From: Natronococcus sp. CG52
GTDB taxonomy: Archaea > Halobacteriota > Halobacteria > Halobacteriales > Natrialbaceae
DNA: 64,000 bases
Reading direction: 5' to 3'
NCBI RefSeq assembly: GCF_023913515.1
Contig: NZ_CP099391.1
Location: forward strand, 1,364,001 to 1,428,000
Shown: piece by piece, positions 19,094-46,819 of the stretch
How positions within the stretch are numbered: position 1 is the stretch's first letter
Layout of the letters: each line of letters starts with the position of its first letter
Translations under genes and position numbers: made by a program
The notes under the pieces: generated by a model
Databases searched by the model: none
The model's input: only the letters and a program-made list of their open reading frames with translations
Told to the model about the DNA's origin: nothing

Positions 19094-19278
19094 TGGTTAT
19101 CACCCATGTTTTCCGCTTCGGTGAATTCTACTTGGACCTTTCCGTTCTCCGGGTTTATCGACCACTCAACCTCGATGTCTGACTCTACGGGAACATCTTT
19201 GATTGCGAGTATCTCTCTCGGGACAGTCGAAGCATAACTGTTTTGCGAACGCTTCCACAGCTTCGTGGTAAACTTCAT
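19090..19278 (-). CDS. AbrB/SpoVT-like DNA-binding protein
   Basis: 62 residues: MKFTTKLWKRSQNSYASTVP followed by REILAIKDVP and a strand-rich acidic end. The swapped-hairpin AbrB pattern (KLxxRxQxSxxSTVPREIL) is recognisable. It probably autoregulates itself and the recombinase, to which it is coupled by a 4-bp overlap. Confidence 0.75.
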   Translation of the reverse strand: MKFTTKLWKRSQNSYASTVPREILAIKDVPVESDIEVEWSINPENGKVQVEFTEAENMGDNQ

Positions 19279-24545: not shown

Positions 24546-24641
24546 TACGTAGATAGGGACATAATTGACTCCGTAGTCACCTCAAAGTAGTGTAAAACTT
24601 GGAGTACGCTCCTGGGATAAAATAAGGTGTTTTGACGACTA

Positions 24642-24661
24642 CCCCCACCCCCCTCATTTCG
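24642..24661 (-). repeat. ORB-like repeat, distal copy
   Basis: CCCCCACCCCCCTCATTTCG, an exact 20-bp inverse of 25162-25181. It is preceded by TTTTGACGACTA, which recurs in degenerate form at 24718 (TTTTGACAACCA). Confidence 0.7.
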
Positions 24662-24957
24662 GACGTTCTTTTGACTAAGAGTAACCCACTACTCCAGCTA
24701 CCATGAGTGATTAGGCGTTTTGACAACCACATTCTCCTCTCATTTAGATATTGCTTAAGTTGAGGATGTAGAGGAATGCATATAGGATCAGTAGTGATCT
24801 GGATTCGGGTTAGATGTATATAAAGAAATCGCACCAATCAACTGATGGAAATTCATATGGTGCTCTTAGATGCTCTTAACCACATTCAGATAATAGAACG
24901 TAACTTGAAAGGGGATAGAACACCCGGTATAGTAAAGTATATAATAACGTTCTAGAT

Positions 24958-25131: not shown

Positions 25132-25181
25132 CCCCCACCCCCTTTCGAGACTAACTACGCGCGAAATGAGGGGGGTGGGGG
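25132..25181. repeat. Paired ORB-like inverted repeats, proximal
   Basis: A C-rich copy (25132-25147) and a G-rich copy (25162-25181) face each other across 14 bp (AGACTAACTACGCG). They lie about 190 bp upstream of the orc1/cdc6 start. This is a likely initiator binding site and probably also controls the gene. Confidence 0.65.
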
Positions 25182-25370
25182 TCCCCATCTCTCAACAGGT
25201 CATAAACAGTATCGGCTATCAGTTCAGTAGTGTCTGTCAAGGGATCTCGTAAACACAATAGATCAGTGATTTTGATGGTGGTTATCGCTCTCATCGTTAG
25301 GATGATGTTTGGGTTCTTCACTCAGCTAAAAGTATATTAATTACTACACCATTCTTCTACACAGTTTCAA

Positions 25371-28122: not shown

Positions 28123-29869
28123 CGCTTTCCCCCAGATCAAAGCCTTCGAAGACACCGCTGTTGAACTCCTCCAGTTTGTCAGCGAGTTCGCGTTGCTCCT
28201 GTAAATCGACGGCCATCGCATCGAAGTCGTTCTCCAAATCGACTTCTGAATCAGCATTGACCAGTCGCTCGAAAATCTGGTCTTCGAAACTCGTCCCGGA
28301 CTCTTCTAATCGACTCAGGATTGAACTCAGTTCTCCCACACTCTGTTGGAACAAGTCGATTTTATGGTAGAGCCGCTCCAGCACGTATTCTTCAACAGTA
28401 TCCTTCAGTGCCATATTGAAAATGAAGACATCTCGTTTCTGTCCGATACGATGGACACGCCCGATCCGCTGTTCAACGCGCATCGGATTCCACGGTAAAT
28501 CCATGTTCACCAGCAAATTACAGAACTGGAGATTGCGTCCTTCACTCATCGCATCGGTTGAAACGAGGATACCTCCTTGCTCCTCGAAGTTCTCCACGAT
28601 CTCCTCTTTCTCACTACTGGAGTGCCCGCCATGGAACGCGTGAACTGTATACCCCTCTGAGGCAAGTCGGTCGAGCACCTGTCGTTGGGTCGCTCGGAAC
28701 TGCGTGAAGACGATCACGCGCCCCATCTCGACATTGTCGCGGGCCTCTTCGACGATGTCCAGGAGTCGCTCCTGTTTCGTTACCGTATCGATATCTTCGA
28801 TCAGGTCCAGAATTGACTCCAGTTCGTCCGCGTGAGTGAGTTCAGATTGCTCATAGAGTCGTTTCTCGATTGTTTTCTTGAGCGCTACGGGGCTGCTAAC
28901 GACCTCCTTCTGGAGGAGCATCAACACGAGCTTCTGTCCCTGATTCTGGCTGTAGGCACCCTTGACGTAGTCAGAGACTGCTTGGTAGAGTTCACGTTCC
29001 TTTGGAGTCGGATCGAACGTCCGTGTATCGACAGTTCGGTCCGTGAAGTCAATATCCGTGTCTTCTCGTCGGTTCCGGATCATCACCTTGTTCAGTCGTT
29101 CCTGTAGCTCGTCTCGGTTCACCAGCGTCTCCTGATTGCTGTTCACGAAGTACTGATGGAAGACATCGCGTGTGCCGAACAGGCCGGGGCGGAGTAGCGA
29201 GACGACGTTGTACAAGTCCGTTAATTCGTTCTGGATTGGCGTTGCCGTCAGGAAGAACGCGTAGTTGTACGTGAGCCGGTCGATCAGGGCATATCGGTCT
29301 GTCTCTTCGTTCTTGACGTAGTGTGCCTCGTCGAGTACCAAAACGTCCCAGTTGCGGTCAAGTACCGTCTGTCGGTGTCGTTCACTCTTCGCAGTGTCGA
29401 TGCTCGCAATGATGTAGTCGTGTGCGTCAAAATCCTCGAACTCATCGTCATAGTTGCATACAAAGTCGAGGCCGAACTTCTCACGGAGCTCAGCCTGCCA
29501 CTGTTTCGCCAGTTGTGCAGGCGTGAGAACGAGCACGGACTCATCCGTGTCCCGAAAATGCATCTCCTTGAGAATCATCCCGACCTCAATGGTCTTTCCA
29601 AGTCCGACCTCGTCAGCAAGGAGGGCTTTCCCATCCATCTCGAAGAGGGCTCGGTAGGCTGCATCCACTTGATGTTCGAGTAGCTTGACGGAGTTTTCGT
29701 CCAACTCCTTCAGCGACCGAAGTTCAGAGTCCGGCTGACCCGCCTGAAGACGAACGGCCTGGATACTCTGTAGATGGTTCCCATCGGTAGTGTCGGTAGA
29801 TAGGGAGTCGAGAAGATCGTCCGCAGGCTCGTGTGAGACCTCAACATCGACGAGGTCGTAGCCTCTCAT
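28115..29869 (-). CDS. SWI2/SNF2-family helicase of Hma-like system
   Basis: 584 residues. The SF2 motifs are in order: ADEVGLGKTIE (Walker A, about 85-95), DEAH (180-183), FLTATPIQNEL (motif III), VIVFTQFRATQRQVL (motif IV), and VEQRIGRVHRIGQKR (motif VI). This is the RapA/SNF2 type of ATP-driven DNA translocase. It is the first gene of a two-gene leftward operon whose promoter region (29870-30011) is shared with the divergent ATPase gene. Helicase, large ATPase and DUF1156 methylase together match the arrangement named Hma (helicase, methylase, ATPase). Confidence 0.93.
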   Translation of the reverse strand: MRGYDLVDVEVSHEPADDLLDSLSTDTTDGNHLQSIQAVRLQAGQPDSELRSLKELDENSVKLLEHQVDAAYRALFEMDGKALLADEVGLGKTIEVGMILKEMHFRDTDESVLVLTPAQLAKQWQAELREKFGLDFVCNYDDEFEDFDAHDYIIASIDTAKSERHRQTVLDRNWDVLVLDEAHYVKNEETDRYALIDRLTYNYAFFLTATPIQNELTDLYNVVSLLRPGLFGTRDVFHQYFVNSNQETLVNRDELQERLNKVMIRNRREDTDIDFTDRTVDTRTFDPTPKERELYQAVSDYVKGAYSQNQGQKLVLMLLQKEVVSSPVALKKTIEKRLYEQSELTHADELESILDLIEDIDTVTKQERLLDIVEEARDNVEMGRVIVFTQFRATQRQVLDRLASEGYTVHAFHGGHSSSEKEEIVENFEEQGGILVSTDAMSEGRNLQFCNLLVNMDLPWNPMRVEQRIGRVHRIGQKRDVFIFNMALKDTVEEYVLERLYHKIDLFQQSVGELSSILSRLEESGTSFEDQIFERLVNADSEVDLENDFDAMAVDLQEQRELADKLEEFNSGVFEGFDLGESDD

Positions 29870-30011
29870 ACTTTCGTAGAGACAAGTATGCGTGAAATAC
29901 GTTTTGTGACCGACAACCCTGATCAGTACATCTTACGAGACTCACAAAACAGACTGAACCCACAGGACCATAGTGCTTATTGGGTGTCAAAGGAGTCTGG
30001 TAAGTATCAAG

Positions 30012-33000
30012 ATGGCACAAACCGGATCTTTATCAAATACCCTCGAAGACACGGTGACTCTCAGCCGTGAACTTCGAGAAGACGGACAGATCGATGGTCA
30101 AGTAAAGCTCTACAACGTTGACGACGACAACGAATTCGAGTCCGACGCGGAGCTCTTCTTCGAACGGACGCTGATGACTCAGGGGCTCCGAGAGGCCCTC
30201 TCGATCCTCCGAGATTCCTTGACTGGCGATGACCCACGGGGGACGCACATCCTCTATGGCCCGTACGGCAGTGGGAAGTCGCACCAGATGGTAGCACTAT
30301 ACCACTGTTTTGATGACCCCCAAGCAGCAGGCGCATGGACGAGCGATTCAATCGAAGGGTTTGATGCTGCGCTCCCGGAGTCGGCAACGCCGATTACGGT
30401 CGCCATGCAGAACGAACAGTACGAGTACCTCTGGGAACCGTTCTTCGAGGCACTCGATTACGATCCTGGAACGTTCAGCTCGGGCGGGTATCCCGATATG
30501 CAGACGATTCAGGAGGCTGTCGGCGACGAAACGGTCGCGTTCTTCGTGGACGAACTGGAGGACTGGTTTGACACACTCCAGGGCGACCGCAAGAGTGCGA
30601 ACAAAGCCTTCCTTCAGTCACTCCTCGAATCGACGGCGCTCTCGGACCTCGAACTGTACACTATCGTCTCGGTGCTCCGTGAGGGTTCCGAGGTTCACGA
30701 CATTCTGAACCGGGAACAGGCGGTCGAGGTTAATATGAACAACCAGGTGGACAAACGCGAGGTCCTTCGCCACCGCCTGATCGACTCCGTGGACGAGAAT
30801 GCTGCCCGTGAGATCGTCAACGGGTACTTTGATGCCTACGACCAGTCCGACCACGTCACCATTCCCGACGGTCTGCTGTCGGAAATGCATGACCTGTATC
30901 CGTTCCATCCCGTGCTTCTGGACGCGCTTGAGACGCGCTACTACGCCGACGAGGACAATCAGAACACGCGCGGGATGATCTACCTCTTCTCGAAGGTCCT
31001 CTTGCAGATGCAGGATCAGACGGACCTGATCACGCACGGCGACATCGACGCCATCGAGTTCGAGGACGAGCTGGCGAAGATCAATTACGAACGGTTGAAC
31101 GCCGCAACTGGTGACATCAAAAGCCGTGTCGACACAGATGAAGTTCCTCACGGTCGCCGCATCTTGAATACGATTCTGCTATACTCGTTGAAGCCCAGTG
31201 AGGGCGAGGGGGCGGAGGTCTCTGAGATCGTGATGGGGGCCTACCAAACGGACGACCTCGTCTCCGACGTCGTGCTCAACCTCGAACGACTCCACGGTGT
31301 CGCGTGGCACCTCCACAAACTGAACGGGAAGTATGCTATCCGTGACCGTCAGAACCCGAACGCACTTATTCGAAATGCAGCTGTTGATGTCTCGGAGACG
31401 TCAGCGAAAGCCGAGATCGCGGACTTCATTACGGATATCTTTGGCTCGAACGCGTACCCGGTCGGGTTCCGGACGAACGACATGCGGGACATCCCGGATG
31501 ACCGTGAGGTGAAAGTCGTCGTGAAGGACAGTCAGTGGGTGCAGGAGGAAGTTAAGAAAGTAATCACGAACGATGGCCGCGGACGCGAATGGCGCAACAC
31601 GCTCGTGTTCGTCCAGCCATCCGGTGACAAAGCCATCGAATCAGGCACGCGGTACATCGACAAGGCGCGGTACATCGAGGGAGCGCGGCAGGTACTCGCG
31701 GATGAGTCCCTCGACAACGAAATCCGCGCGTCGATTCGGGGTATGAAGGAGCAAGAGGAGAACGAACTCCGTGAAGAGCTTCAACTCCTGTACGGCGAAG
31801 TCATTGACGGCGAGAATCTGTTGGATGACGACGAGTGGGCAGACGTAGAGCCGATGGATCTCGACGTTTTCGTCCTCGATGACGCCGAACTCGACGCGAC
31901 AAATATCGCAGATTCAGCTGCTGCTGACCCGTTCGATCTTCAGTCGCACGTCTGGGATATCGCTGAAGACCTGCTGGAGCGACGCGGGGAGATCTCGGTC
32001 GAAGACATCTACGAGCAGTTCCTCCGCGACCCGGAACTCCCGATTCCCGGAAGCGCGAACGACGTGCTGAACGCGACGGTCAAGGCGCTCTCAGACAAGC
32101 CGGTTCTCGCCCGTGATACAGGTGGATTCCGCGACGACCTCTCTGGAAGCTCGCTTGATACCGTCCTCGTCCGGCAAGATGACGTGGACGTGTGGGGTGT
32201 TGATGACGTCGAACAGGAACTACGCCAGCGCTTCGGTAGTGGGACGACGGCGCTCGATATCGGAGACTTCGAACTGGAACTCGTCGAAGATGGGGAAATC
32301 TGGCTCGATGGCGATAGCCACGACGTCGTTATGCGTGCCATTGGTCGGCTCGCCCGTGAGGCACAGTATGTCATCGTGAAAGGGAACGAGATTCTCGACA
32401 AGCCGCAGTCCGACGCAACGCTCCGCGATGTCGGCGGTGCGGATGTCGTCGGTGCATCGTCCCTCGTGGACCGCATCGAGACACACATCAACGAAGACGG
32501 CTACGCGAACCTCGACACGATCATCGGCGAAATCCGCGGGGAGGAATCGGTGTTCCTCCCGCCGGACGAGACTGAGTCCGTCGCCCGCGAGGCGGTCAAC
32601 GATTTCCTTGTGGACGACTACGTCTTGGAAGCCGGCGGTCGATACCTCGGGTCGCTTGGCGACCGCGACCCGACGACGGTGAAGATCGTCCCGACGGTTC
32701 CCGACCGGATCGGTGACCAGATTCTGGAATACATCGAGGACCTAGAACCGGGTGACCAGTTCACGGTGAACAAAGTCACCGATCGGTTCGACAGCAGCGT
32801 CACCGAGTATATGGTACGGACATACCTGCTGGAGAACATCGGGAAGGACGAAGAACCAGAGTACGTCGTCAACACGACCGGCTCGGAGAAAGCCTCCGAC
32901 TGGGTACCTGGGTACCCGTTCCGGAAGGCCGACACGGAAATTCCCACGTGGCGCTTCGAGTACAACGGTGACGACGTCGCTGCGATGCGGAGCAAGTGGC

Positions 33001-33224
33001 GGAACAATCACCAGACAGGGAGTGTCGATTACGGCGACGTCACGTTCATGCTACCGGACAGGGAGGGTGTTCCCGGCGCTCTTCAGGGGACCGCCGACGT
33101 CGATCGGACGCAGGTCAGCCTAACATTGCGGTCTGGGCAAGACTACACGAAAGTGCAGGACCTGTTCGAGCGAATGCCCGATGAAGCATCGAGTCTGAAG
33201 ATCGAGATCAGTTTCCAGAAGTAA
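30012..33224 (+). CDS. Large DUF499-type AAA ATPase of Hma-like system
   Basis: 1070 residues from ATG 30012 (MAQTGSLSN); an in-frame start at 29973 lies in the promoter region. Walker A GPYGSGKSH is at 83-91 and Walker B VAFFVDELEDW at about 175-185. The length and the layout of an N-terminal ATPase followed by a long helical and winged-helix-rich C-terminus (EDIYEQFLRDPELP and similar) fit the DUF499 / BREX PglY-like ATPases. It probably powers target surveillance together with the divergent helicase. It is GC-rich compared with the next gene. Confidence 0.87.
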   Translation: MAQTGSLSNTLEDTVTLSRELREDGQIDGQVKLYNVDDDNEFESDAELFFERTLMTQGLREALSILRDSLTGDDPRGTHILYGPYGSGKSHQMVALYHCFDDPQAAGAWTSDSIEGFDAALPESATPITVAMQNEQYEYLWEPFFEALDYDPGTFSSGGYPDMQTIQEAVGDETVAFFVDELEDWFDTLQGDRKSANKAFLQSLLESTALSDLELYTIVSVLREGSEVHDILNREQAVEVNMNNQVDKREVLRHRLIDSVDENAAREIVNGYFDAYDQSDHVTIPDGLLSEMHDLYPFHPVLLDALETRYYADEDNQNTRGMIYLFSKVLLQMQDQTDLITHGDIDAIEFEDELAKINYERLNAATGDIKSRVDTDEVPHGRRILNTILLYSLKPSEGEGAEVSEIVMGAYQTDDLVSDVVLNLERLHGVAWHLHKLNGKYAIRDRQNPNALIRNAAVDVSETSAKAEIADFITDIFGSNAYPVGFRTNDMRDIPDDREVKVVVKDSQWVQEEVKKVITNDGRGREWRNTLVFVQPSGDKAIESGTRYIDKARYIEGARQVLADESLDNEIRASIRGMKEQEENELREELQLLYGEVIDGENLLDDDEWADVEPMDLDVFVLDDAELDATNIADSAAADPFDLQSHVWDIAEDLLERRGEISVEDIYEQFLRDPELPIPGSANDVLNATVKALSDKPVLARDTGGFRDDLSGSSLDTVLVRQDDVDVWGVDDVEQELRQRFGSGTTALDIGDFELELVEDGEIWLDGDSHDVVMRAIGRLAREAQYVIVKGNEILDKPQSDATLRDVGGADVVGASSLVDRIETHINEDGYANLDTIIGEIRGEESVFLPPDETESVAREAVNDFLVDDYVLEAGGRYLGSLGDRDPTTVKIVPTVPDRIGDQILEYIEDLEPGDQFTVNKVTDRFDSSVTEYMVRTYLLENIGKDEEPEYVVNTTGSEKASDWVPGYPFRKADTEIPTWRFEYNGDDVAAMRSKWRNNHQTGSVDYGDVTFMLPDREGVPGALQGTADVDRTQVSLTLRSGQDYTKVQDLFERMPDEASSLKIEISFQK

Positions 33225-33310
33225 TCTATCAAGGTCTTATACTGCTGTCACAGCGTTCCTGTGTACCGGACTCTAGAAAGCTATTCAACATTTCAGTATA
33301 CACACTCAAT

Positions 33311-34438
33311 ATGGCTCAATACGAGAATTACAAAAATACCGCAGTTAACTCTTTCCGGATTGCTGTTGAGTTATTTAATCGGCCCTTCAATAACGGTCGA
33401 ACGGAAGGTGTGCTGATATTTCTTGATCACAGTTTTGAAATGTTACTGAAAGCAGCGATTTTACGAAGGGGTGGCGAGATCCGAGGTGGGGGAGGTACCG
33501 GTCAGACGATCTCGCTGGAAAAATGTGTAAAAAGGTGCCGAGATGGAACAAGAGATAATCAGCGGATGCAATGTCTATCGCCTTCCGAATCAGCCGCGGT
33601 TTTTTCGCTAAATAATTTGAGAGACTATGCCCAACACGAGCAGGTTGATGTCACAGAGCAACAGCTGTATTTACAGTCAAGGCAGTGTACAGACATTTTT
33701 GAGCGTGTGCTTAACAATGTATTCAACGAGTCGCTATCCGATTACCTCCCCGGTCGTGTATTGCCTCTATCGACTACACTTCCAGTAGATATTTCGGCTG
33801 TTATAGACCGAGAGATGGAAGAGATACAGAATCTGATGCGGGATGGTGCCACTAACAAGGCTAGAAGGAAAATGAAAGCCTTGGATTCGTTGGAACGGGG
33901 TCTCGCTGATGAAGGTCAAACACCTGATCTTAGTGAATTGAATTCAAAATTAGAGTCAGTTGACGATCAGGAGATAGACGAAATCTTTCCGAGTACTTTC
34001 GCAGCGCTTTCTGACGGTGTAGATTCAGGAGGCGGCATTCGGATAAATTTGGGATCGGATGATCCCGGTATTCCTGCACGGTACGTTCCTGAAGATCAAA
34101 TTGGCGAAGAGGATGATGTATACCTATTCACAGAAAAGAATATACATGGGCGATATCCTTTTAATCCAATGCAGTTCAAGAAACAGGTTGATTCTGAATT
34201 ATCAGATGATTGCAGTTGGAAAAATGAACTCTCTTTACCAAGGCTGAAGACGATCTTAATGGAAATGGGGATTTGGGAGCGAGATGAATTTCATCAATCC
34301 GAATTATCACTAGGGGCTGGCGATACCCGGCCCGGTTATAGTCCGAAATGTGTGGATCGGGTTGTAGATACTATTGAGGCAGAAGAGGCCATCGTGGAGG
34401 ATGCTTGGGATAATTGGAAATCTGAACTAGGTTACTGA
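33311..34438 (+). CDS. DUF3644-type HEPN protein within the Hma-like locus
   Basis: 375 residues. The N-terminal helical part has HSFEMLLKAAILRRGG and the HEPN signature RDYAQH (Arg104, His109; R-x4-H), the catalytic motif of HEPN ribonucleases; the set matches the DUF3644 family. The C-terminal ~200 residues are acidic and unrecognised. HEPN proteins of this sort usually act as RNA-cutting toxins in defence, so an abortive-infection arm is plausible (inference). It lies between the ATPase and methylase genes, but its base composition is clearly more AT-rich than either, suggesting later insertion. Confidence 0.82.
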   Translation: MAQYENYKNTAVNSFRIAVELFNRPFNNGRTEGVLIFLDHSFEMLLKAAILRRGGEIRGGGGTGQTISLEKCVKRCRDGTRDNQRMQCLSPSESAAVFSLNNLRDYAQHEQVDVTEQQLYLQSRQCTDIFERVLNNVFNESLSDYLPGRVLPLSTTLPVDISAVIDREMEEIQNLMRDGATNKARRKMKALDSLERGLADEGQTPDLSELNSKLESVDDQEIDEIFPSTFAALSDGVDSGGGIRINLGSDDPGIPARYVPEDQIGEEDDVYLFTEKNIHGRYPFNPMQFKKQVDSELSDDCSWKNELSLPRLKTILMEMGIWERDEFHQSELSLGAGDTRPGYSPKCVDRVVDTIEAEEAIVEDAWDNWKSELGY

Positions 34439-34565
34439 TATCTTCGACCCCCCTCGTTAAGGATGACTATTGTCAAACCAGCCAATTGTACTTTTCCGGT
34501 TAGTCTCTAACCAAGAGAACGCACACTTATGTGGCTCGTGGATAATCGCATCTACATACTGAATA

Positions 34566-37250
34566 ATGTCTGAGCAATCTGGATCTTCACAGGGTCGGCA
34601 GGAACGGACGGAACTCCCCATCGAACGCGGGTTCCCCATTGAGCGCGTGAACGAGATCGCCGAGAAAGAGGGAAGGGCGAAGATGTACTACCGGCCGATC
34701 TACACGATGCACAAGTGGTGGGCGCGACGCCTCGGCTGTGTCTTCCGTGCGATCTCTCTCTACACACTACTTGACGATCCGGAGAAGGTCTCGGTGTTCG
34801 AACCGGGCCACGAGGGCAGCACCCTCGCAGCCTACGGTGACGACGCCGACGGCGAGTCCGATCTCGATGTCGCCTCGCTCCTTGAACGTGTGGATATGAC
34901 TGACCCGGAGAGCCTTTGGGAGCTCTACCCGAAGGACGTTCAGGTTGAGGACAAGAAGATTCTCGATCCGTTCATGGGCGGTGGGACATCGCTCGTCGAG
35001 GCGTCACGCTTCGGCGCGGAGGTCGTCGGCAACGACCTGAACCCCGTCGCCTGGTTCGTCACCAAGAAGGAACTCGAAGCGGGCCAGACCGACGTCGAAG
35101 AGCTTGAGGAAGCCTTCGAGCAGGTGAAAGAGGAGGTTGCCGACGAGATCACCCAGTACTACAAGACGCCTTGTCCGAACGGCGACCACGACGCCGACGT
35201 GATGTACAACTTCTGGGTGAAGGAACTAGACTGCATCTCTTGTGACTCAGAAGTCTCGCTAACTAATGACTACCGGCTTGGTAAAGGTAGGTATAGCGAA
35301 GATGACCGTTATAATGTAGTCTGCCCTGAGTGTGACTTCACTAACTTAGTGAAAGACTGGCATGAGGAGACTGTTTGTGGAGATTGTGGCAATGGATTCG
35401 TTCCGGATCAAGGGACTGTCGGACAGGGGAAATACACTTGTCGTGATTGCGGGCAGAAATATAAGATTGTAGATGCTGTAAACGAGCAGGACGGATTCTC
35501 TACTCGTCTGTATGCGATCGAGTACTATTGTTCGGTGTGCGAACAACAGGGAGCCAATAAGAGTGAATATAAGGGGTATAAGCGGGCTGAAGAGGAGGAT
35601 ATCAAACTCTTCAATGAAGCATGCAAACAGTGGGAAAACACAGATGAACACAAAAAATTTGTACCTGATGAAGAGATTCCGTTAGGAATTCTGTCAGATA
35701 GTTCAGCGTTTGAAGGCGGTATCGGCGGTGGACACAATATCCTGCGACAGGGGTACGAAGAATGGGCTGATATGTTCAATGAACGCCAGCTTCTTTGTCT
35801 GTCTAATATCTTAAGTCAGATTGACGAAATTGAGAACGAGAACATTCAAGAATATCTGCTCTTGGCGTTTTCTGAGAGTCTGAACTATAATACTATGTTG
35901 ACAGACTATAATCCCGGATATAACAAAATCCAACCGATTTTCAAAACAAACGCCTTCAGGCCTCCAGTAAAACCTATAGAAAACAATGTGTGGGGGACTG
36001 ATGAAGGGTCAGGCACATTCTCTGCAATGTGGGATATGGTGAAAACAGGAGTTGACTACGCTAATGCACCAACAGACCGTTACGTCACGAATGGAGAAAC
36101 AAATAAGACTGCAGAATTTGAGCAGACAGTCGGTAGTGCGAGTGAGTTGTTCTGTGGTGACGCCCGAAAGTTGGATTTCGAAGACGAATTTGATGCAGTA
36201 ATAACTGACCCACCATACTACGATAATGTGATTTACTCCGAACTATCGAATTACTTCTACGTATGGCAGCGTCTGCTATTGAAGGAACGCTACGATCATT
36301 TTCAACCTCACGAAACACCAAGAGCAGAGAGTATCGTTGCGAATCCCGCGGAAGGCAAGGGAGCTCCAGAATTTGAATCTGAATTGAAACAGGCATTCAG
36401 TTCGGTTCACAAAGCTCTGACATCAGATGGATCACTCACCTTCACTTATCACCACGCAAGTTCAGAGTCTTGGGGAGAACTGCTTGAAGCCCTCTGCGAG
36501 GTCGGATTTGAAGTTACCGCCACATATCCACTCACGGCAGACATTAACAAATTCATTGAGGGCGAAGCCGTCTCCTTCGACATCGTCGTCGTCGCCCGCC
36601 CTCTAGACGACACCGAGCCCGCCTCATGGAAGTCGCTCCGCCGTGACATCTACCGCACAGCCCGCCGCACCCGAAAACAACTCGAAGAGAACCGCGACCT
36701 CTCACGTGGTGACATCGGTGTGATGGAGATGGGGGCGTGTTTCCGCGAGTACTCGAAGCACCACGGTAAGGTCCAGCGCGACGGCGAGATCATGAGCGCG
36801 AAGGAGGTCGTCCAGGAGATCTACGGCATCATCCAGGAGGCCAGCGACATCGGCGTCGAGGACGTCTTCATCGACCTGCTGGACACATCGAACGTCTCCT
36901 ACGACGACGTGAACAAGCTCTGCCGCGGGACCAATGCCACCCCGGAGGACCTCAAGGAAACGTGCCTCTACAATCAGGATGACGGCTTCGAACTCGGTAC
37001 CTGGGACAACGAGAAGCGCCAGGCGTACATCCAGGAGCGTGTCAATGGCGACGGCGGCGACCACCTGTCGAACCTCGACAAGCTCCAATTCCTCCGCTAC
37101 CGCTACGAGAAGGGTCAGGCTGTCCAGAACTACGTCGAGAAGTGGGATGTTGATGACGACATGCGTGAGCTCGCTGGCCGACTCGCGGACGTGACTGGCG
37201 ACGACACGTACACGCGCGTGCTTGGGGACCGAGACATCACGAGTTACTGA
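34566..37250 (+). CDS. DUF1156-type DNA methyltransferase of Hma-like system
   Basis: 894 residues. The DUF1156 N-terminus (YYRPIYTMHKWWARRL, 41-56) is followed by the AdoMet site DPFMGGGT (134-141) and the catalytic motif DPPY (548-551, DPPYYDNVIYSE), giving an amino-methyltransferase (adenine N6 or cytosine N4). Between them are several zinc ribbons (CISC, CPEC, CGDCG, CRDCG, CSVC). The gene is a mosaic: about 35225-36550 is AT-rich, while both ends are GC-rich like the ATPase. It probably marks host DNA as self for the locus. Confidence 0.93.
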   Translation: MSEQSGSSQGRQERTELPIERGFPIERVNEIAEKEGRAKMYYRPIYTMHKWWARRLGCVFRAISLYTLLDDPEKVSVFEPGHEGSTLAAYGDDADGESDLDVASLLERVDMTDPESLWELYPKDVQVEDKKILDPFMGGGTSLVEASRFGAEVVGNDLNPVAWFVTKKELEAGQTDVEELEEAFEQVKEEVADEITQYYKTPCPNGDHDADVMYNFWVKELDCISCDSEVSLTNDYRLGKGRYSEDDRYNVVCPECDFTNLVKDWHEETVCGDCGNGFVPDQGTVGQGKYTCRDCGQKYKIVDAVNEQDGFSTRLYAIEYYCSVCEQQGANKSEYKGYKRAEEEDIKLFNEACKQWENTDEHKKFVPDEEIPLGILSDSSAFEGGIGGGHNILRQGYEEWADMFNERQLLCLSNILSQIDEIENENIQEYLLLAFSESLNYNTMLTDYNPGYNKIQPIFKTNAFRPPVKPIENNVWGTDEGSGTFSAMWDMVKTGVDYANAPTDRYVTNGETNKTAEFEQTVGSASELFCGDARKLDFEDEFDAVITDPPYYDNVIYSELSNYFYVWQRLLLKERYDHFQPHETPRAESIVANPAEGKGAPEFESELKQAFSSVHKALTSDGSLTFTYHHASSESWGELLEALCEVGFEVTATYPLTADINKFIEGEAVSFDIVVVARPLDDTEPASWKSLRRDIYRTARRTRKQLEENRDLSRGDIGVMEMGACFREYSKHHGKVQRDGEIMSAKEVVQEIYGIIQEASDIGVEDVFIDLLDTSNVSYDDVNKLCRGTNATPEDLKETCLYNQDDGFELGTWDNEKRQAYIQERVNGDGGDHLSNLDKLQFLRYRYEKGQAVQNYVEKWDVDDDMRELAGRLADVTGDDTYTRVLGDRDITSY

Positions 37251-37344
37251 AGGTCGTACCCTAACTCTACGCGGCTACGTTTTTCCTCCGTCGATTCCGA
37301 TATTGTCAGTGATGTTTTCACCGCCTCTCCTGCTATAGTGATCT

Positions 37345-38061
37345 ATGACTACATCTGGCGAGACAATCGTCGGCGTCGATGCCTGCCCGATCGGATGGTT
37401 TGCGACAGTTATTCACAACGACGGCGTCAGAACGGAGACCTACGAAGAGTTCGAGACACTCAGTGAAACCTACACTGAAGCAGACAGAATCCTCGTAGAC
37501 ATCCCTATTGGACTCCCAGAAGACGAGCGACGTCGATGTGACGAGGATGCAAGCGATCTACTAGGTAGCCGGGGAATGTCGGTCTTCTACCCGCCGTGTC
37601 GAAGCGCAGCTGAACTCACTCATTACGAAGAGGCGAACGATGAACACCGCGACCAAATCGGCCACGGACTTTCTCAACAGGCACACAATATCGGTCGAAA
37701 GAGTCTGCAGGTCGCCGACGTCGTTGGAGAGCGATATGACGGGGTGGTGCGTGAGAGCCATCCCGAACTATGTTTTGCTGCCCTGAACGGCCAGCCAATC
37801 GCCTATTCGAAATCTTCAGACCGAGGTCGCGGGCTTCGGATGAAACTGCTCAGTAACGAACTCGACGACGCCGAAGCGCTTTATCGGGATACACGAGATG
37901 AATACCTTCTCAAAGAGGTCCGAAGAGACGACATCCTCGACTCTATGGTGCTTGCCGTCGCCGCGCGAGATGGGAACTTGACGACAGTACCCCCGGATCC
38001 CTCATCGACTGAACCACGAATCTATTACCCGGAGTTCGATGTGCCGATCTTGGAGAGATAA
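37345..38061 (+). CDS. DUF429 family protein (predicted RNase H-like nuclease)
   Basis: 238 residues, the normal length. Family motifs are visible in order: VGVDACPIGW at the start, LVDIPIGLP (about 50), RRCDEDASDLLG, ESHPELCFAAL (about 140), and DDILDSMVLAVAAR near the C-terminus. The fold is predicted to be RNase H-like with acidic active-site residues. Such genes occur in defence islands and near DNA repair genes, but their substrate is not established. It stands on its own between the methylase and the GmrSD-type gene. Confidence 0.88.
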   Translation: MTTSGETIVGVDACPIGWFATVIHNDGVRTETYEEFETLSETYTEADRILVDIPIGLPEDERRRCDEDASDLLGSRGMSVFYPPCRSAAELTHYEEANDEHRDQIGHGLSQQAHNIGRKSLQVADVVGERYDGVVRESHPELCFAALNGQPIAYSKSSDRGRGLRMKLLSNELDDAEALYRDTRDEYLLKEVRRDDILDSMVLAVAARDGNLTTVPPDPSSTEPRIYYPEFDVPILER

Positions 38062-38105
38062 TGACATCCCAAGGTACTTTCTACCCTCCCTGAGCAATCA
38101 ACTGT

Positions 38106-40235
38106 ATGGAATCAGGAAAGAAATCGTTAGAGGAACTGACGACAGCGGGGGTGTTCCACGTTCCGGAGTATCAGCGCTACTACTCCTGGACCGAACCAGA
38201 GTGGGACGACCTCTGGACTGACCTCTACACGCTTCCACCGGACAAACAGCACTACTTCGGGACGATCATCATCCAGAAGACGGACAAAACGGAAAGCGGC
38301 GGGAGTACCAGTGGCTACGGCTCTTCCAGAGCGAAACCGATCAATCTCCTCATCGATGGCCAACAGCGCCTTACCTCGCTTTCGCTGCTGGTCCGCTCGA
38401 TGACGGAGTGTCTGGAGAAAATCGCGCCGGAGACGGATCACGAGGCTGAGATCCTCGATGACGTCGAAGAGATGCGCGAGACGCTTCTCGTTGAGGACAA
38501 CATCTACCAGCTCCAGTTACTCGACAAAGAGGACAACAAGTACCTCGAATGGCTGCTCACTGGGCACAACGTTCACGAGCCGGAGCGTCCGTCCCAGCGG
38601 AAGATGATCGAGGCGAAGGAATACTTTGACGAGCAACTCGACGACCTCACTGCATCCCCCAATGTCGATCCCGTGGACGTCGCTAAGAAACTCAAGCAAC
38701 TCTGGGAGGCCATCCTAGAACTCGAACTGATGGTATATGTCGTTGACGCAGCCAACCCCGAAAAGGCGACACTAATCTTTGACAGCGTCAACGACCGCGG
38801 TCGGTCGCTCTCAACGTTCGATAAGACGAAATCTTTCCTGATGCGGATGGCCTACCTCGCTGCGGACGATGAAAGCGAGGCGCAGGCAACCATTCACCGA
38901 ATTCGGCAATCCTTCGGGGAAATGTACAATGACCACCAAACGATGCTTGAGTCGCCATATGTCACCGACATCAGCGATGATGCGGTCCAGCGCTACCACT
39001 TCATCTCGTACTTCGACTGGTCGAACTCCGACGAGTACAGTGATCCTGCCTTCCTCAGCGAACTGAAAGAGCACGTTCGTACGCTTCGGCGGGAAGATCC
39101 CCAAGCGTGCTTGGAATACATTCGAGACTACACCAACAGCTTGGAGCGCGGATTCAACGCATTAGCAAAAGTGCTTGACTGTACCGGCGATGACGAAATT
39201 TCGAACCTCGTCTACCGAATACACCGTCTCCGTCATGCGACGAAATTCTACCCGTTGCTCCTCAAAGCGTGGCCGACCCTCAATGACGATGAAAAACGGG
39301 ATCTACTGAACGCGATTGAGACGTACATCTTTCGCGTCTATTCGATTGGCAACCATCGTAGCCACACCGGAGAGTCCAGCCTCTACGTCCGCACACGGGA
39401 CATCAGCGAAGACAGTCCCGCTGACGTCTGGGTGAGTAAGGTAGTTTCTCTGATGAACCGATACGAGGATGACTCGCAGTTTCGGCGATCCCTTACAGCT
39501 TCTGACCTGTACTCGAAAGCGAGCTCGCAGGATCTCCGGTACCTCTTCTACTTCTACAACAAACATCGAGCTGACGAGAAGGGTGAGCGCGGTGGACCAA
39601 CGCTCACGGAAGCGATGAGCAACGATTACACGGTCGAACACATTTGGCCACAAAGTCCTGACGAACTCCCGATCGAGAACGCCGACGAGTATCCTAGCCC
39701 CGAAGCACGGTACGACGCGTATGTTCACCGACTCGGGAACCTCACGCTGGCGAGCAGACCGTGGAACTCGAAGTGGGGTAACGCTGAGTTCGAGACAAAG
39801 CGCGACGAGGGGTACGTGGAGTCGAAACTCTGGGTGCAATGGGACATCCAGAACGAGTACGACGAGTGGTCCGTCGAAAACATCGAGAACCGCGAGGAGA
39901 CAATAATCGAGTTTGTCCTCGAAGAGTGGGCGGCACCCGAGACACGTCTTGGCGATATCGAAGAACCTGCAGACGCGGTTGACCGGCTTACGAAGGGGGA
40001 ACAGTTCGTTCTCAAGGCGCTTCGCCAGAACACCGGCGGCGCGGTTCGTCGTGTCATCCACGGAGATGCGAGCGAACTTCCCGATTCACCGTTCGAAGAA
40101 CCAAATTCGAACGGCAAAGAACGAAGCGAGGTGGGTTCAATTCTGAGTCGCCTACAGAACGTTGGCCTTGCTGAGCAGAATAAGTATACCTGGTCACCTA
40201 CCGATGAGGCACTCGCCGCTGAGGTCCCTCCCTAA
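38106..40235 (+). CDS. GmrSD-type DUF262/DUF1524 restriction enzyme
   Basis: 709 residues. The N-terminal DUF262 domain has VPEYQRYYSW and the nucleotide-binding motif DGQQR (84-88, LLIDGQQRLTSLSLL). The C-terminal DUF1524 nuclease has an HNH pattern (YTVEHIWPQSP, then HRLGNLTLASRPWN with the NxxxxN part). An extra ~100-residue C-terminal winged-helix-like region (VLKALRQNTGGAVRRVIHG) follows. GmrSD-type enzymes cut DNA with modified cytosines in an NTP-dependent way. It is a single-chain fusion, complete to the eye. Confidence 0.92.
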   Translation: MESGKKSLEELTTAGVFHVPEYQRYYSWTEPEWDDLWTDLYTLPPDKQHYFGTIIIQKTDKTESGGSTSGYGSSRAKPINLLIDGQQRLTSLSLLVRSMTECLEKIAPETDHEAEILDDVEEMRETLLVEDNIYQLQLLDKEDNKYLEWLLTGHNVHEPERPSQRKMIEAKEYFDEQLDDLTASPNVDPVDVAKKLKQLWEAILELELMVYVVDAANPEKATLIFDSVNDRGRSLSTFDKTKSFLMRMAYLAADDESEAQATIHRIRQSFGEMYNDHQTMLESPYVTDISDDAVQRYHFISYFDWSNSDEYSDPAFLSELKEHVRTLRREDPQACLEYIRDYTNSLERGFNALAKVLDCTGDDEISNLVYRIHRLRHATKFYPLLLKAWPTLNDDEKRDLLNAIETYIFRVYSIGNHRSHTGESSLYVRTRDISEDSPADVWVSKVVSLMNRYEDDSQFRRSLTASDLYSKASSQDLRYLFYFYNKHRADEKGERGGPTLTEAMSNDYTVEHIWPQSPDELPIENADEYPSPEARYDAYVHRLGNLTLASRPWNSKWGNAEFETKRDEGYVESKLWVQWDIQNEYDEWSVENIENREETIIEFVLEEWAAPETRLGDIEEPADAVDRLTKGEQFVLKALRQNTGGAVRRVIHGDASELPDSPFEEPNSNGKERSEVGSILSRLQNVGLAEQNKYTWSPTDEALAAEVPP

Positions 40236-40298
40236 CATCCGATTGCCGTAGCCCGCTTGAACTTGTCACACCGAGCTAGAATCAATCAATCACAGGTG

Positions 40299-40439
40299 AT
40301 GAAACGGTTATTCTGTCTCATACGTGAAGTTGAGTATGAAGAACCATGCGACAAGCTGAAAGCAGACGCCGACGAGCGTGCCGACCAACCAGACTTCGAC
40401 GCGTTACTCCCGCCGGAAGGCTTCGTCCGCGAAGACTGA
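40299..40439 (+). CDS. Small acidic protein
   Basis: 46 codons from ATG 40299: MKRLFCLIREVEYEEP, followed by an acidic end with DFDALLPPEGFVRED. It lies 44 bp ahead of the 127-residue gene on the same strand and has haloarchaeal-like codon use. The function is unknown; a real gene is plausible but unproven. Confidence 0.4.
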   Translation: MKRLFCLIREVEYEEPCDKLKADADERADQPDFDALLPPEGFVRED

Positions 40440-40483
40440 AGTACCGTACCCCTTTTTGACCCCTCGCCAACATTCCGTAGGTA

Positions 40484-40867
40484 ATGGCAGGACCTGGACA
40501 AATACCCGGACAGTATAATCTTGTTATCGAAGGTGCCTACGAAACCTTCGAACATCAGATCCCTGTGGAAGAGTTCCTCCAGCGGCTCAAGAAAGACGAT
40601 GTCCCCAAGAAGGTGAGTGTCGTCGGACTCTCAGATGCCTTGAGTGATGACGACCTGGCGAACGAACTCGCCCATGAGATGGACCGACGTGCGAACGATC
40701 TGGAGTATCAGAGCCCCACGGTACAGTTCGTTGTCAAAGGATCGTTCCACCGAAGCGGGAAGACCTACGACCTTCGATACGATGATGAACTCTACCCTCT
40801 CCAGCAGATCTTCGGTCCACAGCTTGAACGGAAAGAGGACGGAGAGTGGCTCGTCGCGCCGTTCTAA
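40484..40867 (+). CDS. Small unknown protein
   Basis: 127 residues. It contains QYNLVIEGAYETFEHQIPVE, a helical middle (LSDDDLANELAHEMDRRAND), and a strand-rich end with VQFVVKGSFHRSGKTYDLRYD. No family was recognised. It lies between GmrSD and McrC and is convergent with mcrC, with only 4 bp between the stops. Confidence 0.6.
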   Translation: MAGPGQIPGQYNLVIEGAYETFEHQIPVEEFLQRLKKDDVPKKVSVVGLSDALSDDDLANELAHEMDRRANDLEYQSPTVQFVVKGSFHRSGKTYDLRYDDELYPLQQIFGPQLERKEDGEWLVAPF

Positions 40868-40871
40868 CGCG

Positions 40872-42629
40872 CTACAGAAGTTTCAGTGGTCCTTCTTTCT
40901 CGACTTCACCACTTCCGTTCAGGAAGTACAGGTCGATCCACTCCTGACCCTGTTCACGGCAGAACACAGGGATGCACGTTGTCGTGTGCTCGTAGCGCTG
41001 CTTACAGCGCGTCTCGATTTGCTCCCGCGTCCAGTCACCGTCCTGCTCTAGGTCGTACCGATTGCGGACCTCCCACGAGTGCTCGTCGGCGGCAGCCTTG
41101 AGAACGCGCAGCGAGAAATCCCGAACGTCCTTGAAGATGAACGGCCCACTCATTGATTTCGCTTCACTCAGATCCGCCTCTTCGACGCCGTCGAGGCATA
41201 GTCGATTCTCTGCGACAGCGCGGAAGGCTTCGAGTTCGGTTGATTTCCGAACGAGTACGTCGTGCAGGTAGCCGTGGACGACGTTGCCGTATCGGTCCAA
41301 GGTGAATTCGCCCTCAGGTGAGACAATTTGCAGTTCAGCACCAGTTTGGGTGACTCGCCGGCGCTTCGGTTCAAGTAGCGGACAGAGGAACGCGAGTCGG
41401 TCAGCGTGGAGGAGGTAGGCGTAGCTGAACAGTCGTGACCTGGACGGTGATTCCTTAACCGGATCGTGACCCTCCGCGTAGTACTTCGAATCCAGTACGG
41501 CCAGTGTCTCGTCACCCTCCTGCAGCGCGTGGTCCGGTTCGTGGTATATTTGTCCCTCTCCCTCGAACGGATTCACGGACGGTGACCGAACGGGTGTCAC
41601 GTCGTCGAGGTCGCCGAGGTGGTCGTAGGACTTGATGTACGAGAGCTCGCGCTCGATGACGACCTGAGAGTACTGTTCAAACAATGACTCCATGTTTAGG
41701 ACGTAATCTACGACCAACTCTCGCGGACCGTCACGAAGTTGCTGGCCGAGTGACGACGACATCACCGCTTTAGCGACGTCGAACGCCTTTTGATAGTACC
41801 GTCGCTGCTTCGGAATGTCACTGAGCGAGAGGCGTCGATACTCGTCCATCCGGTCCAACCCGCTCCCGACACCCATACTCTCCAAGCGTTCCACCTCTCG
41901 GTGAACTTCCGAGAAGATGCGGTCGTACGCAGGGTGGTCGTTCTGCTGCGAGTTCTGTCGGAAGAGCCGAAGCAGGGTCTTTCCGGCGAAGTGGAGCAGC
42001 GAGTTCGCGGCGTTATCGTACTCAGTCTCGTTGCGGACCCAATGTGGCTCCAGCGTCCCGCGCGCGTGGTTCAAGAGCGTCTGTTCGACGTCGATCTCAC
42101 CCCGCCCATCGAGACTGTCGAGTCGCCGGATGACCAGATCGCGGATGTACCCTTGTCGGTGAATCGTCTCTAACCCGTCGAGGTAGTTGATTGCCAAGAC
42201 CACAAAGACGTCGTCGAGGTGGATATCGTCGGAGAGGAAATCCTGCAGCGGGATCCCATGATACTCGATGGACCGGTTCTGGTCGTAGACGGCCAACAGC
42301 ATGTCGAAGATGTGCTCCCAGTCAATCTTCGGATCGACCTGTACTTTCGACGACGGTGTGAGGCTCACTACGCCGATGATGTCCGTCGCCTCGACGTGGA
42401 TCACCTCGTTCTCGTCTCCGTCTACGGTGACCGTCACGACCTCGTACTCCTGATCGCCGTTGAGTGCCGCCTGACTCTTCGTGAAGACGCCTGGACTCTT
42501 TTGTGTGAAGGAAGCGCGACGAAGCTGGTCCCCGATGGACGACGGACAGCCCTCTATCCGGATCTCCCCTCGCTCGGGGACGTTGAAAGTGTCTTGCCCG
42601 TACTCGTAGACTTCGTCAACGGTGCTCAT
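40872..42629 (-). CDS. mcrC: McrC-like nuclease subunit of McrBC restriction system
   Basis: 585 residues. The N-terminal and middle regions follow the McrC pattern (IDWEHIFDMLLAVYDQN, then HPAYDRIFSEVHREV). The nuclease motif is visible as YHEPDHALQEGD and LAVLDSKYYAEG, a PD-(D/E)xK site with Asp and DSK. McrC joins McrB to cut DNA with modified cytosines. Its ATG overlaps the mcrB stop by one base (TAATG), so both are made together. It is longer than E. coli McrC (~350) owing to N- and C-terminal extensions that are common in archaea. Confidence 0.92.
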   Translation of the reverse strand: MSTVDEVYEYGQDTFNVPERGEIRIEGCPSSIGDQLRRASFTQKSPGVFTKSQAALNGDQEYEVVTVTVDGDENEVIHVEATDIIGVVSLTPSSKVQVDPKIDWEHIFDMLLAVYDQNRSIEYHGIPLQDFLSDDIHLDDVFVVLAINYLDGLETIHRQGYIRDLVIRRLDSLDGRGEIDVEQTLLNHARGTLEPHWVRNETEYDNAANSLLHFAGKTLLRLFRQNSQQNDHPAYDRIFSEVHREVERLESMGVGSGLDRMDEYRRLSLSDIPKQRRYYQKAFDVAKAVMSSSLGQQLRDGPRELVVDYVLNMESLFEQYSQVVIERELSYIKSYDHLGDLDDVTPVRSPSVNPFEGEGQIYHEPDHALQEGDETLAVLDSKYYAEGHDPVKESPSRSRLFSYAYLLHADRLAFLCPLLEPKRRRVTQTGAELQIVSPEGEFTLDRYGNVVHGYLHDVLVRKSTELEAFRAVAENRLCLDGVEEADLSEAKSMSGPFIFKDVRDFSLRVLKAAADEHSWEVRNRYDLEQDGDWTREQIETRCKQRYEHTTTCIPVFCREQGQEWIDLYFLNGSGEVEKEGPLKLL

Positions 42630-43861
42630 TATTCGTAGGAGCCCATCTGACGTCTTTCCTGTTCGAGTTCTCGTTCGGCTAACTCAGCAGCAGGGGCGAG
42701 GTCGAACTCCTCGAACTCTCCGTTCATCGCGCGGTAGTGTTCTGCGATTCGCTCGATTTGCGGGAACGCGGCGGCGTTCAGGAGTCGCGGAACGATGTAC
42801 GTCCGGAACGCCTGTCCGACCGCATCAGTCTGGTCGTACTCATACTCGCCACCCTCCCGACAGCCGACGCCGAGGAAAACGGCGACGTCGCGGTAGTGCA
42901 TCGGACCGAAGCGCATGATCGATCCTTGCGACGTCGATTCGTGACCGTGATTAATTCCCTGATAATCGCGCTCGAACAGTCGAAGGATCTCGCTTTCGCC
43001 GAGATCCGTGTTTTCGGTGACGTGTGTGGTGATCCAATCTTTGAACAGCTGCCGGCGTTTGTCCTCCTCGTACTCGTCCAGTTCGATCATGGCGAACCGG
43101 CGGGTGATCGCGTTGTCAAGTTCGTTCACCGTCCGGTCGGACATATTCATAGTGCAGATGATGTTCACCCGCTCGTCGAGTTCAATTGTCTCACCTTCGT
43201 CAGTCTCGAAAATGGTCTGGTGAGGATTCTCGATAGCAGTATACAGCGGGCCAAAGATTTTGGAGATATCTGCGCGAGTGATTTCGTCTAGGATCACGCC
43301 GTATTGGACGTCAAATCGACGGGCACGCTGTACGGCCTCCGAAACGCAGCCTAATTTCGTACGGTAGCTCAGAGATTCTCCGGTATAGTCTGGGCTGATG
43401 CCCCCGATGATATCTGACGGTGTCCACGAAGGCGTTGCAGTATTGAGACTGTATCCGATACCGGTGTCTTGGGCCAGCTGTTTTGCGAAGGTTGTTTTCC
43501 CTGTACCAGTAGGACCGTACAGAACGACTGGCTTTCCGGTTTTGAGGGCAACCTTTGCGTTTCGCATCACATCGTCTGGGACAAGGACTTCCTCAGGTGT
43601 TTCATCTCCTCGCAAACTCACGAGACGCTTAAGGCTGTCAGAAGCAATCGAGGATTCCAAGACTGCACGTCGAACTTTACCGAGTCCACGCTTTCCATCG
43701 TGGATCCTATCCAGTTCTTCGTCTTCGATCAAATACCGAACTACGCTTTCGTCTTCTGCGTTTTTGATTGCATCTACAACATCCTCCTCGACGCGACGAA
43801 GGATATCTATCTCCTCCTCTGCATCCTCTCGTGTGTAGACCTCGTCAGATGAATTACCCAT
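42629..43861 (-). CDS. mcrB: McrB-like AAA+ GTPase/ATPase subunit
   Basis: 410 residues. Walker A YGPTGTGKTTF is at 115-125, Walker B GVILDEITRADISK about 190-203, and the sensor region IICTMNMSDRTVNELDNAITRRF about 235-257. The N-terminal ~95 residues are helical (YTREDAEEEIDILRR) and replace the methylcytosine-binding domain of E. coli McrB, so the target may differ. It drives translocation for McrC. It is the first gene of the leftward mcrBC operon, facing away from iteron array B. Confidence 0.92.
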   Translation of the reverse strand: MGNSSDEVYTREDAEEEIDILRRVEEDVVDAIKNAEDESVVRYLIEDEELDRIHDGKRGLGKVRRAVLESSIASDSLKRLVSLRGDETPEEVLVPDDVMRNAKVALKTGKPVVLYGPTGTGKTTFAKQLAQDTGIGYSLNTATPSWTPSDIIGGISPDYTGESLSYRTKLGCVSEAVQRARRFDVQYGVILDEITRADISKIFGPLYTAIENPHQTIFETDEGETIELDERVNIICTMNMSDRTVNELDNAITRRFAMIELDEYEEDKRRQLFKDWITTHVTENTDLGESEILRLFERDYQGINHGHESTSQGSIMRFGPMHYRDVAVFLGVGCREGGEYEYDQTDAVGQAFRTYIVPRLLNAAAFPQIERIAEHYRAMNGEFEEFDLAPAAELAERELEQERRQMGSYE

Positions 43862-44254
43862 TTATAGAGAGAAGCCATGGAAACCTTATAAATTCTCTCG
43901 AACGAATCTGTCAGACCAACTTCTTCGGTAGATAGGTGTCAGAGCCAGCAATGAATAGCGGAATGTCTGCAATTGAATGACTCAAATCACAGTATGACGA
44001 TATCCCGGCAAAAAGGAGTAACAGAGAACATCATCAGTAACTGACTCGTGTTACAGAACTGTGGTACTGTATCATGGTACAGGAGCGTGGTACTGGAATT
44101 CGGTACTAGATCGTGGTACACAATCTTGGCACTACCTCCTGTACCAGTAATCAGGTACTGGACCCCGTCACGCCTCTACAATATAGTTCGATTCTTGAAG
44201 GGCGCACCAACTTTGCATAGATATTTAATAGCCTATCCAGGAATCGAAAGCAGA
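43862..44254. other. Divergent intergenic region holding array B
   Basis: 393 bp between mcrB and the plus-strand gene at 44255. It contains array B (44050-44166) and, on the left side, an AT-rich stretch that should hold the mcrBC promoter. No gene was seen. Confidence 0.6.
44050..44166 (+). repeat. Iteron-like array B, nine units of exactly 13 bp
   Basis: GGTAC recurs in strict 13-bp register at 44063, 44076, 44089, 44102, 44115 and 44154, with near matches at the other register points (GTTAC 44050, GGCAC 44128, GTACC 44141). The base before the core is mostly T, giving TGGTAC, then loosely TGnAT. It is the same core and period as array A (15650-15805) but on the other strand. Its place directly upstream of the gene at 44255 suggests control of, or binding by, that gene's product. 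Confidence 0.88.
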
Positions 44255-45232
44255 ATGCCACTACCATACCCCGAACAGGCTCGATTCTACGGACTTGACG
44301 AATACCAGGTTGACGTTCTCTTCATCATCACATGGTGGTATAACGGGAAATGCCTGAAAATGGGCAATGAGAAACGGCAGCTAGGGACTCATTCCGAACC
44401 CCAACTTCGGGAATTGTTCAGTGGATGGTCAGCTGAGGAGTACTCTGATCATGAAGACGCTCATCAACAGTTATTGGATCGGGGCTTTCTACGCGAAGGA
44501 TGGATTTGTCGTCGAAAAATCGATTGGATTCCGACCGAGCAAGGACTTCAAGCCATTCGTGACATCTTCAAGGACTGTGCAGATGATTTTAACCTCCGCC
44601 CTGGCTGGGCTTCAGAGGATGACTCCGGTCCAATTTTCGGAGATCCGAACGAACTACTCCTACACCGGAAAGGTGTCGAGGCTGCTGCCCACTATGTGGA
44701 GAATTACACGTGGGTCGAACGCCTCACCTGGTACCCAATATTAGGTACCCACGAACATCATCCAGATCTTAAGATGCGCACGCCACAGAAGACTTTAGAT
44801 TGGTTTGTAGAGGTTCTCACTAGCACAGGTGATCGTGATGGATGGGTTGAAAAGTGGGAAAGTTACAAGAAACGGTTTGTGAAAGTGTGGTGGATCTTTG
44901 AGGGACGGTCGGATATGTGTGCCTTTTTCAACAAGCTACACGATGAAAGGATCTACACGCTTGATGGTGGTCCGTTCTCTGAACCATACAAAAATTGGTC
45001 AGCAGACGCTGTGAACCGGAAAATTTGGCGCAGCCGTAAGGTTGGGAACAACGATCAAGAAGCGGCACATCTCGTTAGTACGATTACGAGCCTTGTTGAG
45101 GCCGAGTCAGATGATGTGACGGAGTGGTTTGATACCCACTTTGAAATGAGAGATACACTCAATCCAGTCCAGCAATATCACGGGGTAGATGAGTTCGGTA
45201 ACGAGAAATGGTCAGGAATCCGAAAATACTGA
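44255..45232 (+). CDS. Unknown protein with winged-helix-like N-terminus, next to array B
   Basis: 325 residues from ATG 44255 (the open frame reaches back through the repeat array, which is non-coding). The N-terminal ~95 residues alternate helices and a wing (YQVDVLFIITWWYNGKCLKM; QLLDRGFLREGWICRRKIDW), as in winged-helix DNA-binding proteins. The rest is unrecognised, with Trp-rich segments (FVKVWWIFEGRS). The array begins 200 bp upstream, so it may be a plasmid replication, partition or control protein (inference). Confidence 0.65.
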   Translation: MPLPYPEQARFYGLDEYQVDVLFIITWWYNGKCLKMGNEKRQLGTHSEPQLRELFSGWSAEEYSDHEDAHQQLLDRGFLREGWICRRKIDWIPTEQGLQAIRDIFKDCADDFNLRPGWASEDDSGPIFGDPNELLLHRKGVEAAAHYVENYTWVERLTWYPILGTHEHHPDLKMRTPQKTLDWFVEVLTSTGDRDGWVEKWESYKKRFVKVWWIFEGRSDMCAFFNKLHDERIYTLDGGPFSEPYKNWSADAVNRKIWRSRKVGNNDQEAAHLVSTITSLVEAESDDVTEWFDTHFEMRDTLNPVQQYHGVDEFGNEKWSGIRKY

Positions 45233-46499: not shown

Positions 46500-46742
46500 C
46501 ACGGTCTAAGTGAGGTGTGGTCTGACTAATAATCGACCCCGGACAGCTAGCGCAGCCAGCAATCCCACTCGCGCGCACCATCTTGTTAACGCCCATAGCT
46601 TTAACACGTACACCCTCGAATCGCGGGATGACTCTGACCCGAGCAACCCGACGTTGCGCACCGTCTCGCAGAATGCGTGCCAGCGCAAGCTCAACTCGAC
46701 GCATGCTGGCGATTACTCTGGACTCTGTTACGCAAGGCGCAG

Positions 46743-46770
46743 AAGCGGGCCGGGCGCGATTTGAACACGC
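46743..46770 (-). repeat. Right attachment site within tRNA-Lys
   Basis: 28-bp direct repeat of 8173-8200 with one mismatch. It covers the acceptor end and T arm of tRNA-Lys plus four flanking bases, as is usual for tyrosine integrases that use tRNA 3' ends and leave the tRNA intact. Confidence 0.85.
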
Positions 46771-46819
46771 GACCGTCTGATTAAGAGTCAGACGCTCTGC
46801 CGGACTGAGCTACCGGCCC
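46747..46819 (-). tRNA. tRNA-Lys (anticodon CTT)
   Basis: Read on the minus strand it forms a full cloverleaf: acceptor stem GGGCCGG/CCGGCCC, D arm GCTC...GAGC, anticodon arm TCTGA-CTCTTAA-TCAGA (anticodon CTT), variable loop, T arm GCGTG-TTCAAAT-CGCGC. The 3' CCA is not encoded. The gene survives integration because the element carries the missing 3' end. Confidence 0.95.

Follow-up and report, generated by a model that had tools for sequence, protein, structure and literature searches.

Paired 13-bp repeat arrays in a haloarchaeal integrative island as candidate centromere-like sites related to arrays upstream of plasmid parA genes

Background

The window (the whole stretch of DNA analysed, 64,000 nt of the Natronococcus sp. 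CG52 contig NZ_CP099391.1) contains two arrays in opposite orientation, here called A and B, in which a short unit recurs every 13 bp. Which function do such arrays serve? The initial annotation had offered three answers, namely partition sites, replication iterons, or operators of one regulator acting at both ends of the element, and had pointed to the protein encoded at 44255, next to array B, as a possible binder.

Results

The arrays and their unit

Array B contains nine register points at a constant spacing of 13 bp (44050, 44063, 44076, 44089, 44102, 44115, 44128, 44141 and 44154), whose pentamers are, in order, GTTAC, five times GGTAC, GGCAC, TGTAC and GGTAC, hence six exact copies of nine. 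Of 200 shuffles that preserved dinucleotide composition, none had more than 2 exact GGTAC in phase, versus 6 in array B. Register listing and shuffles thus bear out the first description of array B, and array A was likewise found to be its inverted partner, longer and on the minus strand, with the same unit and period over 14 points (Table 1). Over the whole 64-kb window, GGTACN8GGTAC with at most one mismatch was matched 15 times versus 2.3 expected. We also considered a motif-free lag test. Of the lags tested, only two exceeded the shuffle maximum (0.49), namely 13 (0.58) and twice that value, 26 (0.61). An Rfam search over array B returned no RNA except tRNA.

The consensus of the unit (n = 63 units) is TGGTAC-W-GTAnCA, that is a 13-bp dyad with 6-bp half sites around an A/T position, position 7 being A or T in 59 of the 63 units. 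When the second half was compared with the reverse complement of the first, the arm match ranked 4 among 720 column orders. In collinear arrays the conservation of the core was 0.83 versus 0.74 for the second half.

The island that carries the arrays

Both arrays are part of an island of 38.6 kb that is inserted in tRNA-Lys (~8168 to 46770), and GC content drops between ~8 and 46.7 kb of the window. Array A is 7.4 kb from the left end of the island and array B is 2.6 kb from the right end, which agrees with the earlier placing of the arrays towards the ends of the element. The ORB-like arms listed in Table 1 are a G-rich inverted pair of 26 nt each, 490 nt apart and upstream of orc1/cdc6, and judged from sequence they are probably the replication origin of the island; because of this pair we consider the arrays as separate from the origin. 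The serine recombinase-like gene overlaps a small upstream ORF (19090-19278).

Table 1. Features of the island and its integration site, with coordinates in the window
Feature	Coordinates	Strand	Remarks
attL	8168-8200	+	33-bp direct repeat of the tRNA-Lys 3' end, 31/33 match
Tyrosine integrase, island left end	8271-9374	+	72% identical to the integrase of the G118 island, same tRNA
Array A	15654-15825	-	14 register points of 13 bp, 7 exact; TGGTAC unit as in array B, inverted
Decayed serine recombinase remnant	15845-15988	+	In-frame stops; abuts array A
Serine recombinase-like gene	18404-19093	-	Resolvase, marginally above the Pfam cut-off
ORB-like arm 1	24641-24666	+	Probable replication origin
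ORB-like arm 2	25157-25182	-	Inverted, 26 nt, 92% complementary to arm 1; probable replication origin
Orc1/Cdc6 of the island	25371-26672	+	TIGR02928 above cut-off
McrB-like AAA+ gene	42629-43861	-	Array B 188 bp upstream of the start
Array B	44050-44166 (PWM scan: 44049-44165)	+	Nine register points of 13 bp, consensus TGGTAC-W-GTAnCA
Orphan 325-aa gene adjoining array B	44255-45232	+	
attR	46738-46770	+	33-bp att repeat copy within/adjoining tRNA-Lys
tRNA-Lys (CTT), integration site	46745-46819	-	

Three further observations concern the island itself. The absent N-terminal part of the decayed recombinase remnant would fall at the present position of array A. A defence-type cluster (26956-43861), with DrmD/SNF2 helicase, DUF499, PDC-S19, a DUF1156-like adenine methylase, HEC-06 DUF262 and McrBC, is largely common to the window and G032. 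The two tRNA-Lys islands have in common, next to the tRNA, a stretch of ~190 bp without a clear gene (~46570-46760 of the window and ~630-830 of the G118 stretch), which is 79% conserved.

Distribution among genomes

In the 4.7-Mb genome, runs of three units with at most one mismatch were found only at arrays A and B, and the scattered two-mismatch matches elsewhere were at chance level (estimate ~9). The genome-wide in-phase GGTAC search proposed in the initial annotation thus gave nothing beyond chance matches outside the two arrays, and arrays in many unrelated chromosomal places, which had been named as contrary to the reading proposed there, were not encountered.

We scanned a set of 125 Natrialbaceae genomes and found TGGTAC arrays in eight of them, the window genome and seven others. 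The 13 arrays are distributed as two in the window, four in G032 (one weak), two in G399 and one each in G401, G370, G091, G118 and G046. A four-unit scan of 391 genomes from the class gave convincing arrays in the family of the window only; a single match in G045 and a coding-type repeat in G147 were judged coincidental. The inverted pair is not conserved, since the number of arrays in the relatives ranges from one to four and their orientation varies.

The island borders were established for the window and for G118, whose island occupies the same tRNA-Lys, whereas the other array regions are island-like by gene content. Array A is collinear with the array of G118 (173 bp, 78%). Between arrays of differing contexts, homology is often restricted to the array itself, and the pairs G091/G399 and G118/G046 have additional flanking DNA in common. 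In the nine array stretches (the eight with TGGTAC arrays plus that of G164, described below) the motif-free test gave 12 hits for lag 13 and 0-3 hits for the other lags, excluding multiples of 3 and the harmonic 26.

As regards sources outside these genomes, we rejected viruses and plasmids as the origin of the arrays, zero viral contigs scoring with the array PWM, and phage and plasmid collections gave no useful match to the arrays. Runs of TGGTAC were seen in bacteria, several of them (L167, L178, L192, L194, L197, L205, L206 and L217) with a 39-bp period, and the runs with that period are possibly protein-coding repeats and not DNA sites.

13-bp arrays upstream of parA

G164 is a ninth array-bearing genome of the family, and in this case the array is on a plasmid-like contig, directly upstream of parA. 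Arrays of 13-bp period were found at ten plasmid or contig parA loci of several genera. The wider survey considered 52 haloarchaeal parA loci, representing two broad ParA groups that are ~40% identical (loci with arrays upstream of parA: L149-L157, L158, L159 and L264-L313). Lag 13 was the top lag upstream of parA in 51 of the 52 loci, which are not independent of each other (the ten initial loci are included and some are near-identical), versus 16 of 384 ordinary upstream regions. In the literature searched, with subscription journals mostly outside its reach, we found no description of these arrays.

The sequence of the array unit varies by ParA subfamily. The commonest one is ATCTGT-W-ACAGAT, a dyad with a central A/T and hence of the same geometry as the TGGTAC unit. 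The TGGTAC unit itself was in none of the examined parA loci; the nearest was TGTTACAGATATC, the class-1 unit, with a correlation of 0.45 (p ~0.10), a likeness that is no more than suggestive. The two ParA loci of the window genome carry units other than TGGTAC, with no match to arrays A and B. The predicted structure of the ParA partner is helical, with a layout consistent with ribbon-helix-helix, and gave no PDB match and no known fold. In many plasmid records the partner gene is labelled 'acyl-CoA dehydrogenase'. From their position and from bacterial precedents, we infer that the parA-linked arrays are centromeres.

Candidate readers of the arrays

No ParA, no recognisable partner and no FtsZ-like gene was found in the regions with TGGTAC arrays. 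Precisely, arrays A and B have neither a parA directly downstream nor a gene for the acidic partner, and the two arrays are thus orphans. No gene common to all the array-bearing regions was found in the nine stretches. The 44255 protein has relatives in one other genome of the 125 of the family, a genome without an array, hence it cannot explain the array class; we rejected it as the binding protein of the class, its relatives being absent from the other array genomes, and its suggested role as array binder is unlikely.

Orc1/Cdc6 was found in five of the nine array stretches, within 0.9 kb of an array in G032 and G401. Serine recombinase-like genes, some decayed or without the catalytic motif, are within ~12 kb of the arrays in seven of the eight genomes (Pfam Resolvase: 0-5 matches per genome), an association that we considered as suggestive only, because the control set was taken from other families. 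Being often near genes of these two kinds, the arrays appear linked to maintenance functions.

Alternative readings of the arrays

Arrays A and B are both between divergent gene starts (A is flanked by the 15431 and 16157 ORFs, B by mcrBC and 44255), a position expected if the arrays were operators through which a regulator controls the flanking genes. Array B is a short distance upstream of mcrB, and so is a weak, partly out-of-phase array of G032 (G032:C1 ~364050-364200) with respect to its mcrB homologue. However, when the context of all 13 arrays in the eight genomes was considered on heuristic ORF calls, four were between divergent starts, five in tandem and four between convergent 3' ends (G370, G401 and twice in G032), hence not always promoter-proximal. 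Moreover, the genes next door are mostly unrelated from genome to genome, and a common regulator gene was not found among the array regions. The convergent cases disfavour the proposal of operators of one regulator at both ends, and we consider it unlikely.

The nearby serine recombinases, and the decayed remnant that abuts array A, would fit a second reading, in which the arrays are accessory or recombination sites of these enzymes, for example a dimer-resolution site. Known resolvase sites have subsites laid out over 28-34 bp, unlike tandem units of 13 bp. The arrays are not located at recombinase promoters, there is no recombinase in G370 although it has an array, and most of the plasmid regions examined have parA-linked arrays without an annotated recombinase. 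We regard the reading as quite unlikely.

Iterons controlling the replication of the island, the second of the original proposals, are suggested by the tandem, iteron-like repeats and by the Orc1/Cdc6 genes described above. Against this, the window has the separate ORB-like pair upstream of its orc1, the G118 island has an array and no Orc1, and the array regions share no gene. As Orc1 repeats the arrays were rejected, since in other families the seven related Orc1 regions considered showed no convincing 13-bp array at a slightly lower threshold. Iterons are thus disfavoured, and we hold them to be improbable. Binding or decoy sites for a family-specific host protein, carried by the islands to titrate or recruit it, would agree with the restriction to one family across regions of differing gene content with no common gene, but no host locus has three near-exact units beyond chance and there is no candidate protein, hence this reading is no less improbable.

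Discussion

The 13-bp period, the dyad geometry, the scarcity of arrays elsewhere than in islands and the indifference to gene orientation lead us to favour partition, and we put at about an even chance that arrays A and B are centromere-like sites of the integrative element. They look like such sites because the class of 13-bp arrays is upstream of nearly all the parA genes surveyed, and a structural site would suit the way they occur whatever the arrangement of the flanking genes, convergent 3' ends among them. Of the three original proposals, partition is the best supported, by the parA-linked period and the dyad geometry.

From these sequence features we infer binding of a protein, a role in partition, excision of the island and action in trans, as follows. 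Arrays A and B would be members of the 13-bp class that precedes parA on haloarchaeal plasmids. Dimers of a DNA-binding protein would occupy neighbouring dyads (6-bp half, A/T, 6-bp half) along the array, and the loaded protein and the array would make a nucleoprotein rod, by which an excised form of the island, replicated through Orc1, could be segregated. The orphan arrays would have to depend on a reader protein whose gene lies elsewhere, or on an unrecognised gene.

Tentatively, some archaeal integrative islands may have orphan centromeres but no segregation motor, and may segregate either by borrowing the par machinery of a plasmid that is resident in the same cell or enters it, or by a ParA-independent mechanism, in an archaeal parallel to the centromere piracy of SGI1.

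Plasmid segregation in haloarchaea is little described in the literature that we found, and an array upstream of nearly every examined parA provides each system with an obvious candidate for its centromere. The orphan arrays in ParA-less islands raise in turn the question of whether archaea have centromere hijacking or motor-free partition.

Comparison with known systems

The nearest systems are the haloarchaeal par loci, with ParA and an acidic partner of ~140 aa (e.g. WP_010904097/WP_010904098 of pNRC200), which have a tandem array of 13-bp period and similar length, and in the commonest subfamily a 6+1+6 dyad with a central A/T, as in the island; they differ in having parA directly downstream of the array, and in the sequence of the unit. 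Haloarchaeal ORB origins resemble the island in having repeats near orc1/cdc6 in mobile replicons, although the ORB-like element of the island stands apart from the arrays, as two inverted arms with a wide gap between them (24641-24666 and 25157-25182).

Among bacteria, Deinococcus has iterons upstream of parAB with parS-like function (PMC7671480). In pSM19035, contiguous repeats are bound by a ribbon-helix-helix ParB (PMC9499535); its parS (omega heptad arrays) resembles the island arrays in being made of contiguous short repeats, which there are the centromere, but its units are non-palindromic and of 7 bp and it has a resident ParA/ParB pair, whereas the island has 13-bp dyads and no such pair. 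For orphan sites, the best parallel is SGI1, an integrative element in which two parS mimics, DR1 and DR2, are orphans (PMC10954446). SGI1 and the island are both integrative and both have two orphan centromere-like sites without their own ParA. The sites of SGI1 are in 31-bp repeats and are read by a known helper ParB, whereas those of the island are arrays of 9-14 units for which no reader was found in the genome, whose two resident ParA loci have other units.
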